The notes under the pieces are model-generated. The model made no database searches. It saw only the letters and a program-made list of their open reading frames with translations, and was not told the DNA's origin. This document shows positions 3,192 through 46,666 of a stretch of 46,666 nucleotides of DNA, piece after piece. A program made the translations under genes and the position numbers. How positions within the stretch are numbered: position 1 is the first letter of the stretch; the number at the start of each line of letters is the position of its first letter. Location: the NCBI GenBank assembly GCA_029959645.1, contig JASCOJ010000007.1, forward strand, positions 1 to 46,666, read 5' to 3'. The DNA is from Microbacteriaceae bacterium PS02332. GTDB taxonomy: Bacteria; Actinomycetota; Actinomycetes; Actinomycetales; Microbacteriaceae.

Positions 3192-4514
3192 TCAGACGCG
3201 CTGGGACTCCCGCGAGCCCGACACGTCGGCCGACACGGCGGGCGTCGCCGCCGCCTCGCGCCGGATCACGATGACCGTCACGTCGTCGTCGTGCGGCACC
3301 GCGTCCGCCCGCGCGGACAGCGCCCGCACGAGCGCCGCCGGCTCCCGGTCCCGCTGCGCGAGCTCGGCCACCTCGTCGACCGCGTCGTCGAGTCCGCCGA
3401 ACAGGTCGAGCACGCCGTCGCTGAAGGAGATGAGGAGGTCGCCGGGCGCGAGCGTCCCGTCCGTCGTCGCCCACTCGTCGCGGAGGCCCAACCCCAGCGG
3501 CAGGTCCGTCGAGCGCAGTCGCTCCACACCCCCGGCGGCGCGGAGCACGAAGCTCAGCCCGTGGCCCGCGTCGGCCCAGCGGAACGTGCCGTCATCGGCC
3601 ACCCGCGCGTGGAAGAGGGTGGTGAAGGTGACGTCGGTGCCGGCCTCCTCGGCGGTGAGCCCGTCGGAGGCCCGGCGCAGCGCCTCGGACGGGTCGTCGA
3701 CGGTGCGGGCGCTCCGGAGCGTCGCACGGACGGCGGCGGCGATGAGTCCGGCGCCGACGCCCTTGCCCATCACGTCACCGAGGCTGACGGCCAGGCCGTT
3801 CCCGGTCCGGTACCAGTCGAAGAAGTCGCCGCCGACGGACTTCGCGGGCAGGCAGGCGCCGGCGACGCTGAGGTCGGCCATCCGCCGCGAGCCGACGGCC
3901 CCGGCGTCCGACCCGCTGCTCGTCGGCAGCAGGGACCGCTGGACGGCGGCGGCGCGGGCGATCTCGGCGCGCACGACGCCCTCGTTGGCCTCGGCGGTGG
4001 CGACGGTGATCCGGGCGTGGCGGGAGAGCTCCTGCACGATGGTGGCGACCACGCCGAACACGACCGCGGTGAGCCCGAGGCGGATGAGCTCGCTCGGGGC
4101 CGGCGGGTCACCCGGGGTCAGGACGAACGGGGCGAGGAACACGACCGCGACGCCGAGCACCGACCAGATGACGGTCCGGCGTCCCTCGAGCGACGCCCAC
4201 CACACCACCGGCAGGAGCACGATCGCGCTGAAGATCGACGTCCCGGCGCCGGTGCCGGTACGGAGCAGGGCGATCGCCACGAAGTCGAGCACGAGCAGGA
4301 TCGGCACGAGGGCGGTGAGCCGCGGTAGCCAGCTCGACACCGCGGCGATCAGCGTGACGACGACGGTGGCGACGATGCTCGCGAGGAACGTCTCGGCGTC
4401 GGTGACGTGCAGTGCGGGCAGCACGACGCTGAGCAGCGCCGCGATCGCGAGGAGGCCGCTGATCGGCGCCTGCCGCACGATGGTGCTGTCGATGAGGCTG
4501 GTTGGGCTGGGCAT
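3192..4514 (-). CDS. Membrane SpoIIE/RsbU-type PP2C phosphatase
   Basis: Serine/threonine phosphatase of 440 aa. Residues 1-165 form about five hydrophobic helices with short loops. A helical linker (about 165-205: VQELSRHARITVATAEAN..., AAAVQRSLLP) leads into the PP2C_SpoIIE domain. Metal-binding acidic motifs are visible in order: VGGDFFDW, LGDVMGKGVGAG, DAGH, ISFSDGVLD and HDDDVTVIV. The QRSLLP stretch before the domain is typical of RsbU-like enzymes. In other bacteria such phosphatases dephosphorylate anti-sigma-factor antagonists; no partner STAS or RsbW gene is in the window. The transmembrane part has no known sensory fold. TAGCCT at 4524-4529 gives a near-leaderless start. Confidence 0.88.
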   Translation of the reverse strand: MPSPTSLIDSTIVRQAPISGLLAIAALLSVVLPALHVTDAETFLASIVATVVVTLIAAVSSWLPRLTALVPILLVLDFVAIALLRTGTGAGTSIFSAIVLLPVVWWASLEGRRTVIWSVLGVAVVFLAPFVLTPGDPPAPSELIRLGLTAVVFGVVATIVQELSRHARITVATAEANEGVVRAEIARAAAVQRSLLPTSSGSDAGAVGSRRMADLSVAGACLPAKSVGGDFFDWYRTGNGLAVSLGDVMGKGVGAGLIAAAVRATLRSARTVDDPSEALRRASDGLTAEEAGTDVTFTTLFHARVADDGTFRWADAGHGLSFVLRAAGGVERLRSTDLPLGLGLRDEWATTDGTLAPGDLLISFSDGVLDLFGGLDDAVDEVAELAQRDREPAALVRALSARADAVPHDDDVTVIVIRREAAATPAVSADVSGSRESQRV

Positions 4515-43397: not shown

Positions 43398-44738
43398 TCA
43401 CGCCTCCAGGTCGGCCACGGAGGCCCGCTGCACCCGCTCCGGCAGCCCGCGCAGGGCCGCGTGCCAGCTCCAGGCCGCACCGAGGAAGACCGCGGTCGTG
43501 ATCGCCCACAGCAGCCACGGCACGGGGGAGTCGAGCAGCCCGAGCGTGAGCGGGAACAGCGCCATGCCCACCGAGCTCGCCGTCTGGAACACCCCGATCG
43601 CCCGACCGCGGATCCGCGGGTGCGGGGCCTCGGCCAGCACGGCGTTCATCGCCGGCATCGTGACCATGTCGGCGAACGCCATCGCGACCGCGGAGAGCAC
43701 CACGTACGTCCACGCAGCCGTCCCACCGAGGGCGGGCAGGACCACGAGCGGCAGCACGGTGAGCCCGGTCAGGGTGGCGCCGGCCGCGATGAGGGTGCCG
43801 CGTCGGCGACCGGCGACGGCACGGGTGACCGTCGTCTGCAGTGCGGCGCACAGGGCGGTCGTCACCGCGAACTGCACCGGGGCGACCGCCGGCGGCAGGT
43901 GCCACTGCTGCACGAAGAGGACGCTGAGCGCCACGTTCGGCAGGACCATCGCCGGGCCGATGAGGAACTGGCCGAGCGTGATGAGGCGCATCGAGCGGTC
44001 GGCGGCGAACGCGCGGAGGGCGGCGCGGGCGTCCGCGCGGTCGTGGCGGTCGGTCGCGTCCCGGCCGGTCGTCGCGTCCAGCGGGCCGGTCGCGACCAGC
44101 GCGTCGGTCGCGTCCGGCGCCCGCCGGGCGGGGGGCGCGGCGCGCCCGCCCGGGGCCTGGGTGGCGCAGACGCCGGCCGCCCCCCCGCTCGTGACGACGT
44201 TGGCGAGGACCAGCCAGCGCAGCCCGTCCTGGCCCTGGGCGAGCGTGACCGCCGCGACGACCGCGCCGGCACCGAGCGCGGCGGCCTTCGTCGCCTCGAG
44301 GAACGCGAACCACCGCTCGAACGGGCGGCCGTCGGCCAGGTCGTGGACGTAGGCGGTCCACGCCGTCCAGTAGAGCCGTTCGGACGCGTTCGCGAGGAAC
44401 ACCGCGGCGAACACGGTCACCGGGTCGTGCGCCACGAGGTACAGCGCGAAGCCGGCGGCGGACATGAGGTTGTTCGTGATCATCGACGTCTTCGCGCCGA
44501 ACCGGTCGGTGAGCACACCGCCGAGCAGGCCGATCGGCAGGGCGACGAGCGACGCCGCCGTCGACAGCGCGCCGATCACGGCGAGGGGGACGTCGGTGGT
44601 GAGGGTGAAGTAGACGATCGTCAGGGGCAGTGTGAGCCCGGCGCCGATCGTGTCGACGAGGACGGCGAACGTGACCGAGCGGTGTTCGCCGAGGGTGGTG
44701 AGCGAGGCCCGGAGTCGGGCAGGGGCAGAGAAGAGCAC
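43398..44738 (-). CDS. MFS transporter (probable drug/multidrug efflux type)
   Basis: 446 aa, twelve predicted transmembrane helices in two bundles. The helix 2-3 loop is GGVLTDRFGAK, the MFS motif A (GxxxDRxGR-like), and a long Ala/Asp/Thr-rich cytoplasmic loop (about 195-240, with DATDALVATGPLDATTGRDATD) links the halves. Likely a proton-driven exporter; substrate not predictable. The start is GTG 44738 with only a weak GGGA upstream. Its leader carries a five-codon ORF and two hairpins (44790-44861) that look like an attenuator. The BLUF-TetR regulator lies about 720 bases upstream on the same strand and is its likely regulator by position. Confidence 0.85.
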   Translation of the reverse strand: MLFSAPARLRASLTTLGEHRSVTFAVLVDTIGAGLTLPLTIVYFTLTTDVPLAVIGALSTAASLVALPIGLLGGVLTDRFGAKTSMITNNLMSAAGFALYLVAHDPVTVFAAVFLANASERLYWTAWTAYVHDLADGRPFERWFAFLEATKAAALGAGAVVAAVTLAQGQDGLRWLVLANVVTSGGAAGVCATQAPGGRAAPPARRAPDATDALVATGPLDATTGRDATDRHDRADARAALRAFAADRSMRLITLGQFLIGPAMVLPNVALSVLFVQQWHLPPAVAPVQFAVTTALCAALQTTVTRAVAGRRRGTLIAAGATLTGLTVLPLVVLPALGGTAAWTYVVLSAVAMAFADMVTMPAMNAVLAEAPHPRIRGRAIGVFQTASSVGMALFPLTLGLLDSPVPWLLWAITTAVFLGAAWSWHAALRGLPERVQRASVADLEA

Positions 44739-44789
44739 TGAGGCATCCCGGGAGTCAGCGCGCGGGGGAGACCGCGCAGGCCAGCAGGA

Positions 44790-44843
44790 ACACCCGAGCG
44801 TCGGTGCTCGGGTGTCGGGAGGTGTCGACGCTCGTGCGTCGAC
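44790..44843 (-). promoter_or_regulatory. Putative transcription attenuator of the MFS gene
   Basis: On the minus strand, hairpin 1:2 pairs GTCGACGC with GCGTCGAC (44836-44843 with 44824-44831, loop ACGA). Hairpin 3:4 pairs ACACCCGAGC with GCTCGGGTGT (44806-44815 with 44790-44799, 6-nt loop). Segment 2 can instead pair 9 bases (CGAGCGTCG, 44826-44834) with CGACGCTCG (44795-44803), which breaks both hairpins. Segment 1 starts right after the stop of the MQTIH leader ORF. A ribosome held there would block 1:2 and free segment 2 to disrupt 3:4. No T run follows 3:4, so whether it terminates or masks translation is unclear. Confidence 0.5.
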
Positions 44844-44861
44844 TCAGTGGATCGTCTGCAT
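44844..44861 (-). CDS. Five-codon leader peptide MQTIH upstream of the MFS gene
   Basis: ATG CAG ACG ATC CAC TGA on the minus strand, with GGAAG just upstream (spacing only 2 bases, so initiation is uncertain). Its stop codon directly abuts the left arm of the first attenuator hairpin. A -10 box (TAGCGT, 44908-44913) lies about 47 nt upstream of the ATG. Such minimal ORFs often act as ribosome-stalling sensors of antibiotics ahead of resistance genes. Confidence 0.45.
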   Translation of the reverse strand: MQTIH

Positions 44862-44907
44862 GACTTCCGGGGGTGCGGGGACGGCCACGTGTCCGTGACC
44901 GAGGGGC

Positions 44908-44913
44908 ACGCTA
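44908..44913 (-). promoter_or_regulatory. Putative -10 box of the MFS leader transcript
   Basis: TAGCGT on the minus strand. Transcription starting 6-7 nt later would leave about 40 nt before the MQTIH ORF. No convincing -35 is visible. Confidence 0.35.
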
Positions 44914-45057
44914 CCGGTTCGCGGGCGCGAGCGACACCCCCGGTGCGGAACACCGCACGGTCCTGCGCGTCGGTGCGTGTCCCGACGGGTTTGTCGGTGG
45001 TCTCCGCCATGCTCGGCAGGCAACGTGTTCCTGTTCGGGTCAGGCGCATCGAGCTCT

Positions 45058-45089
45058 GGCGCTGGTGTCCGAGGGTGGACACCAGCGCC
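45058..45089. terminator. Perfect 13-bp hairpin, terminator-like
   Basis: GGCGCTGGTGTCC (45058-45070) and GGACACCAGCGCC (45077-45089) with a 6-nt loop. On the minus strand it would stop read-through from the BLUF-TetR gene before the MFS promoter. Confidence 0.6.
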
Positions 45090-45202
45090 TCCTTCGTGTC
45101 GTCACCGCGGAGCGCCGGTCGGCGACGCCGATGGCGGTGGCCCTCGCCGGGCTGCGGACCGCGTCGCACGGCGGAGCCCGCAACCGCGGGACGATGTCGA
45201 CC

Positions 45203-45320
45203 GTCCGACCACCACCCGAGGTGGTCGGACAGTCGGCGTCGGCCACCTGGCCACCACCCGAAGGTGGCCTGGTGACCGACGTCGGACGCTCGGCCCCCAC
45301 CCGAGGGGACCGGTCGTCCA
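45203..45320. repeat. Array of three hairpins sharing the loop ACCCGA
   Basis: Loops ACCCGA at 45214-45219, 45256-45261 and 45299-45304, spaced 42 and 43 bases. Stems: 11 bp perfect (GTCCGACCACC), 7 bp (GGCCACC, one extra loop base) and about 7 bp GC-rich with a mismatch or wobble (GGCCCCC side). The stem sequences differ yet pairing is kept. Confidence 0.65.
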
Positions 45321-45458
45321 GCTCGGCGACTCCTGTCAGCCGGCCGGGCACGCGTGCGTCAGTGGCACGCAACGACGAGTCAACCGGCGCCCCGGGAGGC
45401 GCGACAGTCCACGTTCACGGGGAGAACGGTCGTTCTTCCCATGGTCGTCGTCCGGCGC

Positions 45459-46517
45459 TCAGGCCTCGGTCGTGACCGTCGCCGCGGACTCCCACCACGA
45501 GGGCGCCTCGTACTGTTCCGACCAGCCGCGCCGCATACGGGCGGCGGCACGGTCGAACGCGTCGGTGGCGTCCATCTCCGGCACGAGCAGGGACTGCATG
45601 CGCAGGCCGTCGTAGAGCGCGAGCAGTTGCTGCGCGCCACGCTCCGGGTCCATCGTCGCCGGCTCGCGGCCGTCGCGGACGTCCGCCTCGAGTCCGGTCT
45701 GGATCGTCTGGCGGAACTGCCGGTAGGCGGAGCGGTAGTAGTCGACGCCGTCGAGCTCCGGGTCCGTGGCCGCGCCGAGGCTCGAGGCGAGCAGTCGCAT
45801 CAGCGCCGGCTCCTCGACGTGGGCGGCGATGAGGGCGTGCAGGTACGCGACGACGCCGCGCTCGGCCGCCATCGGGGCGAGCGGCGCCGCCACCGCGCGG
45901 GTCCAGCGCTCGATCGTCGCGGCGAGCAGCGCGTGCCGCGACGGGAACACGGCCTGCACCGCCTCGGAGGACATGGCGCACTGCTCGGCGACCGCGTCGG
46001 CCGAGAACGCGGCGAGACCGTCGCGGCGGAGGACCGTGATCGCGCCGTTCACCACGCGGGTCCGCGGGTCCTCGTCGTCGTCCGCGTGCTGGTTCGTCAG
46101 CGGCGCGAGCGGGTGCTTGCGGAACCACTCGAGCAGCGCCCGCGCACGGGAGGCCCCGAACGACGGGTCCGTGGGGCGCGCCGGGTCGAACAGGTCCACG
46201 AAGCCGGGGACCTCCTTGGCGAGCGGGTCGAGCGGCTGGAACGCCATCGACCAGTCGGGGAAGGCCCGCTCCTGCACGGCGTCGTCGCACAGCAGCTGCA
46301 CGTTCGTGTGCCGCGGGTCGAGGCGCACCTGCTCGAAGCGCTCGTGCACGACGTCGTCCTCGCCCTCGAGGATCCCGATGCAGTTGCTGTCCCGGTGCGC
46401 GAGCATCCCGGTGACGCCGAGGCGCGTGTTCTTCTCCCGGCCGACGGTGAGGATCTGCGCGAGCTCCGAGTCCGTGATCGGTCGCGTCTGGGTGCTCGTG
46501 TAGACGAGTGATCGCAT
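45459..46517 (-). CDS. BLUF-domain/TetR-type fusion regulator
   Basis: 352 aa from ATG 46517, where the BLUF fold begins. Residues 1-95 align without gaps to BLUF domains: Tyr6 (VYTS), Asn30 (REKN), then GMLAHRDSNCIGILEG, RLDPRHTNV, and W89/M91 (FPDWSM). The position equal to AppA Gln63, essential for the BLUF photocycle, is Gly48. A linker (about 96-150) leads to a TetR N-terminal helix-turn-helix (about 152-198, VVNGAITVLRRDGLAAFSADAVAEQC... VFPSRHALLAATIERW) and a helical ligand/dimer domain. It is probably a flavin- or otherwise-modulated DNA-binding protein controlling the MFS gene and itself. Whether it still senses light is open. Confidence 0.85.
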   Translation of the reverse strand: MRSLVYTSTQTRPITDSELAQILTVGREKNTRLGVTGMLAHRDSNCIGILEGEDDVVHERFEQVRLDPRHTNVQLLCDDAVQERAFPDWSMAFQPLDPLAKEVPGFVDLFDPARPTDPSFGASRARALLEWFRKHPLAPLTNQHADDDEDPRTRVVNGAITVLRRDGLAAFSADAVAEQCAMSSEAVQAVFPSRHALLAATIERWTRAVAAPLAPMAAERGVVAYLHALIAAHVEEPALMRLLASSLGAATDPELDGVDYYRSAYRQFRQTIQTGLEADVRDGREPATMDPERGAQQLLALYDGLRMQSLLVPEMDATDAFDRAAARMRRGWSEQYEAPSWWESAATVTTEA

Positions 46518-46611
46518 GGTCCTGGTCTCCCTGCTCGCGGTGGTCGCGGATCGAGTGAACCGCGACTGCGCGTCGACCACAACCCCTCGTTCGTGCGCCG
46601 CGCGGGGGTAC

Positions 46612-46666
46612 GAGGAGGGGGGGGGGGGCCCCCCCCCCCCCGGGGGCCCCGCGGGGGCGCCGCCCC
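46612..46666. other. G/C homopolymer tail, probable artefact
   Basis: From about 46616 the sequence becomes long runs of G then C then G, unlike anything else in the window. This looks like a contig-end or base-calling artefact and not biology. Confidence 0.6.

Follow-up and report, generated by a model that had tools for sequence, protein, structure and literature searches.

A conserved BLUF domain that lacks the glutamine of the BLUF switch is fused to a repressor-like TetR-type domain in most of the genomes that we sampled from one genus, Curtobacterium. We describe it from a stretch of 46,666 nucleotides of Microbacteriaceae bacterium PS02332 (contig JASCOJ010000007.1, positions 1 to 46,666; hereafter the window), whose genome we treat as Curtobacterium. 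Light sensing by BLUF domains is held to depend centrally on this glutamine; canonical BLUF photoreceptors bind FAD, and blue light shifts their absorption 10-15 nm to the red. Judging from the residues that the fused proteins have kept, lost and newly fixed, we see close to an even chance that the fusion, in the main clade to which the window protein belongs, is a flavin-binding one-component regulator with non-canonical signalling.

The fusion gene lies on the minus strand (45459-46517) and, by open reading frame translation, Pfam and a structural model, encodes a protein of 352 aa with an ATG start. Also on the minus strand, in order of translation, are the BLUF core (residues 1-93; 46239-46517), a helical cap that the model places at residues 94-136 (46110-46238) and that standalone BLUFs of the family have too, completing a short-BLUF unit, a linker (residues 137-150; 46068-46109) with pLDDT below 50 over residues 137-148, a TetR-type helix-turn-helix (HTH) recognised by profile and model (residues 151-200; 45918-46067), and a TetR C-terminal domain (residues 201-334; 45516-45917). 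An earlier note on this DNA, made from the letters alone, had proposed a BLUF domain fused to a TetR-type part, and both the fusion and the BLUF kinship of the N-terminus are borne out by profile and fold. Pfam family PF04940 (BLUF) matches residues 2-92 with E 1.6e-25 and 89.5 bits (cut-off 25), TetR_C_6 exceeds its cut-off (30.7 against 27), and the AlphaFold2 model (mean pLDDT 77.7) has an N-terminal ferredoxin-like BLUF fold followed by a TetR fold. TetR_N falls below its cut-off (18.8 bits against 24), and the HTH helices are present in the model. Among solved structures, the BLUF fold was matched to AppA by Foldseek and to PixD, BlrB and BlsA by both structure searches; the top matches of the TetR part include FadR repressors of Bacillus, of which one structure contains stearoyl-CoA.

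How much of the flavin pocket has been retained? Tyr6, Asn30, Trp89 and Met91 are all present at the positions that the earlier note gave them, and its reading of the key Gln as Gly48 was correct. We take Gly48 to be the equivalent of AppA Gln63. Read directly from the minus strand, the codon of Tyr6 is at 46500-46502, that of Cys46 (TGC) at 46380-46382 and that of Gly48 (GGG) at 46374-46376. The PixD numbering as given in PMC5899715 (Tyr8, Asn32, Gln50, Met93) fits the window protein with an offset of two, Tyr6 being equal to Tyr8 and Gly48 to Gln50. The top match by sequence to a solved structure is the photoactivated adenylyl cyclase OaPAC (E 8.6e-13); the alignment covers residues 1-97 with a single gap, after residue 79, and position 48 is therefore aligned beyond doubt.

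Glycine is found at position 48 in 33/33 proteins from the window and 32 loci on genome contigs, one of which (L064) ends at 286 aa at a contig end; in two of these proteins Tyr6 is Phe. A larger set of 180 distinct BLUF segments (loci up to L252 plus the window) contained 63 fused and 117 standalone sequences, the latter sampled by similarity rather than exhaustively (76 from Curtobacterium and its family, 41 from other phyla; 13 lack a letter at position 6). All of the fused sequences (63/63) carry Gly at position 48 and none of them Gln, and all of the standalone ones (117/117) carry Gln; Gly48 is thus neither chance nor a sequencing error. This uniformity, and the at least two base changes needed to turn a Gln codon into a Gly codon, led us to reject the idea that the protein is a repressor under normal light control whose position 48 shows an error of sequencing or an unusual allele. 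That idea was weighed because the end of the window's contig is of low quality; we found nothing in its favor and give it practically no weight.

A second change accompanies the first. Among the fused sequences, 53 carry Tyr6 (46 in the main clade and 7 in clade c2) and 10 carry Phe6 (7 in c3 and 3 in c4). Position 46 is Cys in 53/53 of the Tyr6-bearing fusions, and in standalone BLUFs it is Phe (108) or Ile (9), with Phe in 76/76 from the genus and family and a mixture of Phe (32) and Ile (9) in the 41 from other phyla. Only Cys46 and Gly48, among all sites fixed in the 53 Tyr6-bearing fusions, use residues seen in 0/117 standalone sequences. The full set of Tyr6, Cys46, Gly48, Arg69 and His70 is present in 53/53, and Asn30, Asp67, Trp89 and Met91 are likewise at 100%. 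From what is described for other BLUF domains, these retained residues include the presumed flavin contacts. In the model, strand beta3 is predicted to span residues 45-52; because side chains alternate along a strand and positions 46 and 48 are two apart, residue 46 would lie on the flavin-facing side, sharing a face with the switch Gln. A search of open-access papers on Phe48 returned none on the residue equal to position 46. The earlier note had left a choice between altered photochemistry and reuse of the fold for sensing something else, a choice that an invariant Cys46 arriving together with Gly48 would narrow.

The 10 Phe6-bearing fusions keep Gly48, have Val (7) or Ala (3) at position 46, and have lost His70 in 10/10 and Arg69 in 7/10 cases. 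A Frigoribacterium homologue, which stands outside the counts of 63 and 53, keeps Tyr6, Cys46 and Gly48 and has His67 in place of Asp67 and Ser69 in place of Arg69. Taken together, these patterns suggest that the residues that matter to flavin chemistry have largely been kept or lost together, although the link with Arg69 is not absolute, since the Frigoribacterium protein lacks this residue and three Phe6-bearing fusions retain it.

How widespread is the fusion? Of 67 Curtobacterium genomes, 46 have matches at E 1e-50 or better, the largest number in a single genome being five; one of the 46 (G355) matches residues 1-236 only. Counting every type of BLUF domain, 65 of the 67 have at least one, with a maximum of seven in a genome. 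Curtobacterium is a non-phototrophic leaf and litter dweller, and for a non-phototroph it is BLUF-rich. All named full-length relatives are Curtobacterium, except one labelled Microbacteriaceae bacterium. In 398 genomes of the family (best five candidates per genome, E 1e-50), matches outside Curtobacterium were confined to the TetR half, and 396 genomes of the phylum (best five candidates per genome, E 1e-35) yielded none except the window's own. A plasmid collection held the fusion in eight records, seven of them Curtobacterium plasmids and one a Frigoribacterium plasmid (L277, 6001-7059). The Frigoribacterium copy surfaced only in this collection, which means that the genome sampling was not exhaustive; its public annotation begins 270 bases too late, and the BLUF domain is thereby hidden. 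The earlier note's view that a direct BLUF-to-TetR fusion is unusual agrees with this range, Curtobacterium and a single Frigoribacterium plasmid.

When the BLUF parts were placed in a tree of 180 rows, the fused ones fell into one clade (support 100/98), and the neighboring row is a standalone, Gln-bearing BLUF from Curtobacterium genome G295 (support 99/93), which is 59% identical to the first 136 residues of the window protein. The tree, which has a midpoint root, few columns for its number of rows, a bootstrap that had not fully settled and some long branches, points to a single fusion event and puts Gln48Gly, like the pocket change, on that stem or close to it. The fusion most likely arose in Curtobacterium, an origin that stays a likelihood because the Frigoribacterium copy is absent from the tree. 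Independent loss of Tyr6 in c3 and c4 was not supported, as c3 and c4 forming one clade could not be rejected (p-AU 0.221).

A possible source is seen in the window's own genome (G000), where contig 222 (L006, L216) carries a Gln-bearing BLUF gene and, some 0.1 kb further downstream in the same orientation, a TetR-like gene. The TetR-like protein is the best separate match in that genome to the TetR half of the fusion (43% identity). Such a two-gene arrangement could have given rise to the fusion, but the tree places the G295 BLUF, not that of contig 222, beside the fused BLUFs. BLUF and TetR genes are also neighbors in G295 and G336, about 0.7 kb apart. As a general rule, BLUF-TetR adjacency was rejected, being absent beside most of the standalone BLUF genes examined.

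Is the fused protein maintained? Purifying selection acts on the intact gene: for 27 of the 46 distinct main-clade proteins, simple Nei-Gojobori counts, taken over pairs that are related and not independent of one another, gave median dN/dS values of 0.21 for the BLUF core, 0.23 for the cap, 0.35 for the linker, 0.39 for the HTH, 0.70 for the recognition helix (10 codons only) and 0.19 for TetR_C. Constraint is thus similar in the sensor half and the C-terminal half; conservation is lower in the HTH than in the BLUF core or TetR_C, and within the main clade the recognition helix evolves fastest. For this helix the median is 0.66 over 9 pairs in c3 and 0.21 over 6 pairs in c2, and the BLUF core of c3 has a median of 0.28 (10 pairs). 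A fast recognition helix fits proteins with different operators as well as a relaxed HTH; because this helix is variable and not rich in basic residues, DNA binding is itself open to doubt.

Upstream of the gene, on the minus strand, is a promoter-like element (46552-46585) of the form GGGTTG-N20-TTCACTCG, which can alternatively be read as TTGTGG-N17-TTCACT. The layout recurs in 22 of 46 main-clade orthologues, with a spacer of N20 (18) or N21 (4), and in 0/17 fusions of the other clades; it is probably the fusion gene's own core promoter. A stricter sigma-70 scan of 44700-46620 reported no promoter-like site, this element included. The element lies 35-68 bases upstream of the ATG at 46517 and so supports that start, whose equivalent is ATG or GTG in nearly all main-clade orthologues; an upstream GTG (46580, 373 aa) falls within the element and was disfavored. 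Could the element mark a regulon? GGGTTG-N20-TTSACTCG (spacers N18-22) has a single occurrence in the window's genome, and a looser form was found above none of the standalone BLUF genes examined; a shared regulon was therefore rejected. The earlier note had offered 44740-45458 as the DNA to which the protein might bind, but that region is downstream of the gene, with the promoter-like element on the other side.

Downstream of the fusion is a gene for an MFS transporter (43398-44738). We found no target gene shared by the neighborhoods of main-clade fusions, which sit in many different places. The real upstream neighbor in the window is missing, because the contig ends in a poly-G/poly-C run (46620-46666) that probably arose as an artefact of assembly or sequencing. 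In the stretch that separates the fusion from the MFS gene, three hairpins stand in tandem at 45190-45320 (as RNA, -90 kcal/mol, z -7.1); their loops are ACCCGA, ACCCGAA and ACCCGA. Across the collected loci, redundant ones included, 26 of 419 occurrences of ACCCGAA form the loop of a hairpin with a stem of at least 7 pairs; the figures for other loops are 5/1741 (ACCCGA), 0/1285 (CCCGAA) and 0/369 (ACCCGAG), and controls gave 0 or 1 of 538-1100. An Rfam scan of the window produced no match at the gathering score.

A different kind of neighbor recurs in two side clades only. A gene for a SpoIIE-type phosphatase stands directly upstream of 7/7 c3 fusions and divergently beside 4/7 c2 fusions; it is near 2/46 main-clade and 0/3 c4 fusions, where many flanks are short (1.5 kb for many of the main clade). 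Counted as entries, such neighbors accompany 19 of 105 fused genes, a figure that takes in redundant places as well as the gene of the window despite its distance of 41 kb; among the standalone entries the figure is 0 of 137, a rough control because flank lengths differed. In L174 (2794-4592), the SpoIIE gene and the following Tyr-less, Gln-less BLUF-TetR gene share an ATGA overlap, which we checked at this locus, and the same order holds in L166, L170, L171, L172, L173 and L175; the c3 pair is a candidate compact operon. Plasmid P20 has a sigma-70-family factor next to a SpoIIE phosphatase. The window itself encodes, at 3192-4514, a SpoIIE phosphatase domain protein (E 3e-30) with an N-terminus that is hydrophobic by eye; it is a relative of the phosphatases encoded next to fusions of c2 and c3 and lies 41 kb from the fusion.

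What might the fused protein do? We propose that a complete short BLUF, sensor core and helical cap, was joined once to a TetR-family regulator, and that the flavin-side strand beta3 was remodeled on or near the fused stem by the changes Gln48 to Gly and Phe46 to Cys. As described in the portions available of two papers, Gln50 and Asn32 of PixD bond flavin C4=O while the Gln also bonds Tyr8 (PMC5899715), and light drives rotation and tautomerisation of the BLUF Gln (PMC9853863). With Gln48 replaced, this canonical movement between Tyr6 and flavin C4=O is impossible under established BLUF chemistry. Main-clade proteins, that of the window included, would still bind a flavin nucleotide; light or redox state would then trigger exchange of electrons or protons among the flavin, Tyr6 and perhaps Cys46, and the signal may run from the strand bearing Trp89 and Met91 through the cap to the TetR dimer, altering DNA binding. 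In the Phe6-bearing side clades flavin-based function would apparently have been lost, a fate that is less likely for the Tyr6-bearing fusions, since these keep Tyr6 and the flavin-contact residues and have newly fixed Cys46. A more specific version, in which Cys46 and the space left by Gln allow flavin-cysteine or flavin-tyrosine redox chemistry that reads blue light or redox state, is speculative and in our estimate rather improbable; a Cys46/Tyr6 redox mechanism is not known in the BLUF fold.

In favor of the flavin-binding regulator we count the purifying selection, the five-residue pocket set in 53/53 and a precedent among LOV receptors; the weights on the other side are the behavior of Gln mutants, the loss of Asp67 and Arg69 in Frigoribacterium, and the Phe6 clades possibly recording one event only. 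The mutants, as reported in PMC6695109, include Slr1694 Q50A and AppA Q63E, which are locked in pseudo-lit states, and BlsA Q51A, with which cells look lit in the dark and which is insoluble on overexpression. The locked mutants suggest an alternative that we consider possible but unlikely: flavin is bound, Gly48 fixes a lit-like (or dark-like) shape, and the BLUF domain serves as a constitutive dimerisation or anti-repressor module while the TetR half senses a ligand of its own. TetR_C is as constrained as the BLUF core, as expected of a true sensor, and the FadR structures, one with stearoyl-CoA, are among its best structural matches. However, a frozen module needs neither an invariant Tyr6 nor a newly fixed Cys46. 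The insoluble BlsA mutant instead implies that loss of the Gln can cost flavin-dependent stability, and it favors a flavin-free reuse of the BLUF fold, whether its pocket takes up some other small molecule or its surface contacts proteins. The Phe6 clades point the same way, as they lack Tyr6, Cys46 and His70 yet have an intact reading frame under moderate constraint, and in c3 they follow a phosphatase gene. We nevertheless hold flavin-free reuse to be unlikely, because the main clade and c2 share Tyr6 and an invariant Asn30, Asp67, Arg69, His70, Trp89 and Met91.

The TetR half, too, may have changed its role. It may no longer bind DNA and may act through protein partners, for example the SpoIIE-type phosphatases of a sigma-factor switch, a reading that overlaps the others, so that the likelihoods given here do not sum to one. 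The subthreshold TetR_N score, the less conserved HTH, the fast recognition helices of the main clade and c3, and the phosphatase genes adjoining c3 and c2 fusions would all fit. But the HTH helices are retained in the model, the recognition helix of c2 is slow, fast helices are also expected when paralogues adopt new operators, and the phosphatase gene is distant in the window and rare beside main-clade fusions; we regard a purely protein-partnered role as doubtful.

Relative to the short BLUFs PixD (Slr1694, Tll0078), BlrB and BlsA, which act on a separate partner, the fusion is joined to its TetR domain, with Gly for the switch Gln and Cys for the neighboring Phe. One such partner is the repressor AcoN, which BlsA antagonises in blue light; AcoN is of the sigma-54/Fis type and hence no TetR precedent (PMC6595428, in part). 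Like OaPAC, the fusion uses BLUF as the N-terminal sensor of a multidomain protein, whereas the output of OaPAC is a cyclase and its residue aligned with position 48 is Gln. Compared with Bacillus FadR, TtgR and BetI (TetR/AcrR/FadR-type), it adds an N-terminal BLUF and has a weak HTH that evolves fast in the main clade. The contig 222 pair has the same types of part, with BLUF first, but as two separate genes with an intact Gln. LOV domains, whose fold is unrelated, usually rely on a Cys close to the flavin, which within reach of C4a forms a light-driven adduct; LOV-like chemistry in the fusion is conjectural. The likeness would lie in being a natural flavin sensor without the key Gln: natural LOV receptors that lack the conserved Gln still signal, which the authors attribute to water-mediated hydrogen bonding (PMC9098866, in part). 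A review of light-regulated expression includes engineered LOV-TetR repressors and, in the text available, does not name a natural BLUF-TetR protein (PMC9614035). Our search of the open-access literature by title and start of abstract, which is weak evidence and leaves subscription papers and preprints outside, found neither a BLUF-TetR fusion nor a natural Gln-less BLUF.

The fusion amounts to a natural experiment, a BLUF without its switch, for which Gln-bearing relatives in the same genome are controls. Should the pocket with Cys46 and Tyr6 prove active toward light or redox state, it would give the BLUF fold a new flavin chemistry and provide laboratories with a compact one-component regulator. 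The fusion also yields a prediction for the biology of these bacteria: their short standalone BLUFs may act on TetR-type regulators of the same subfamily.
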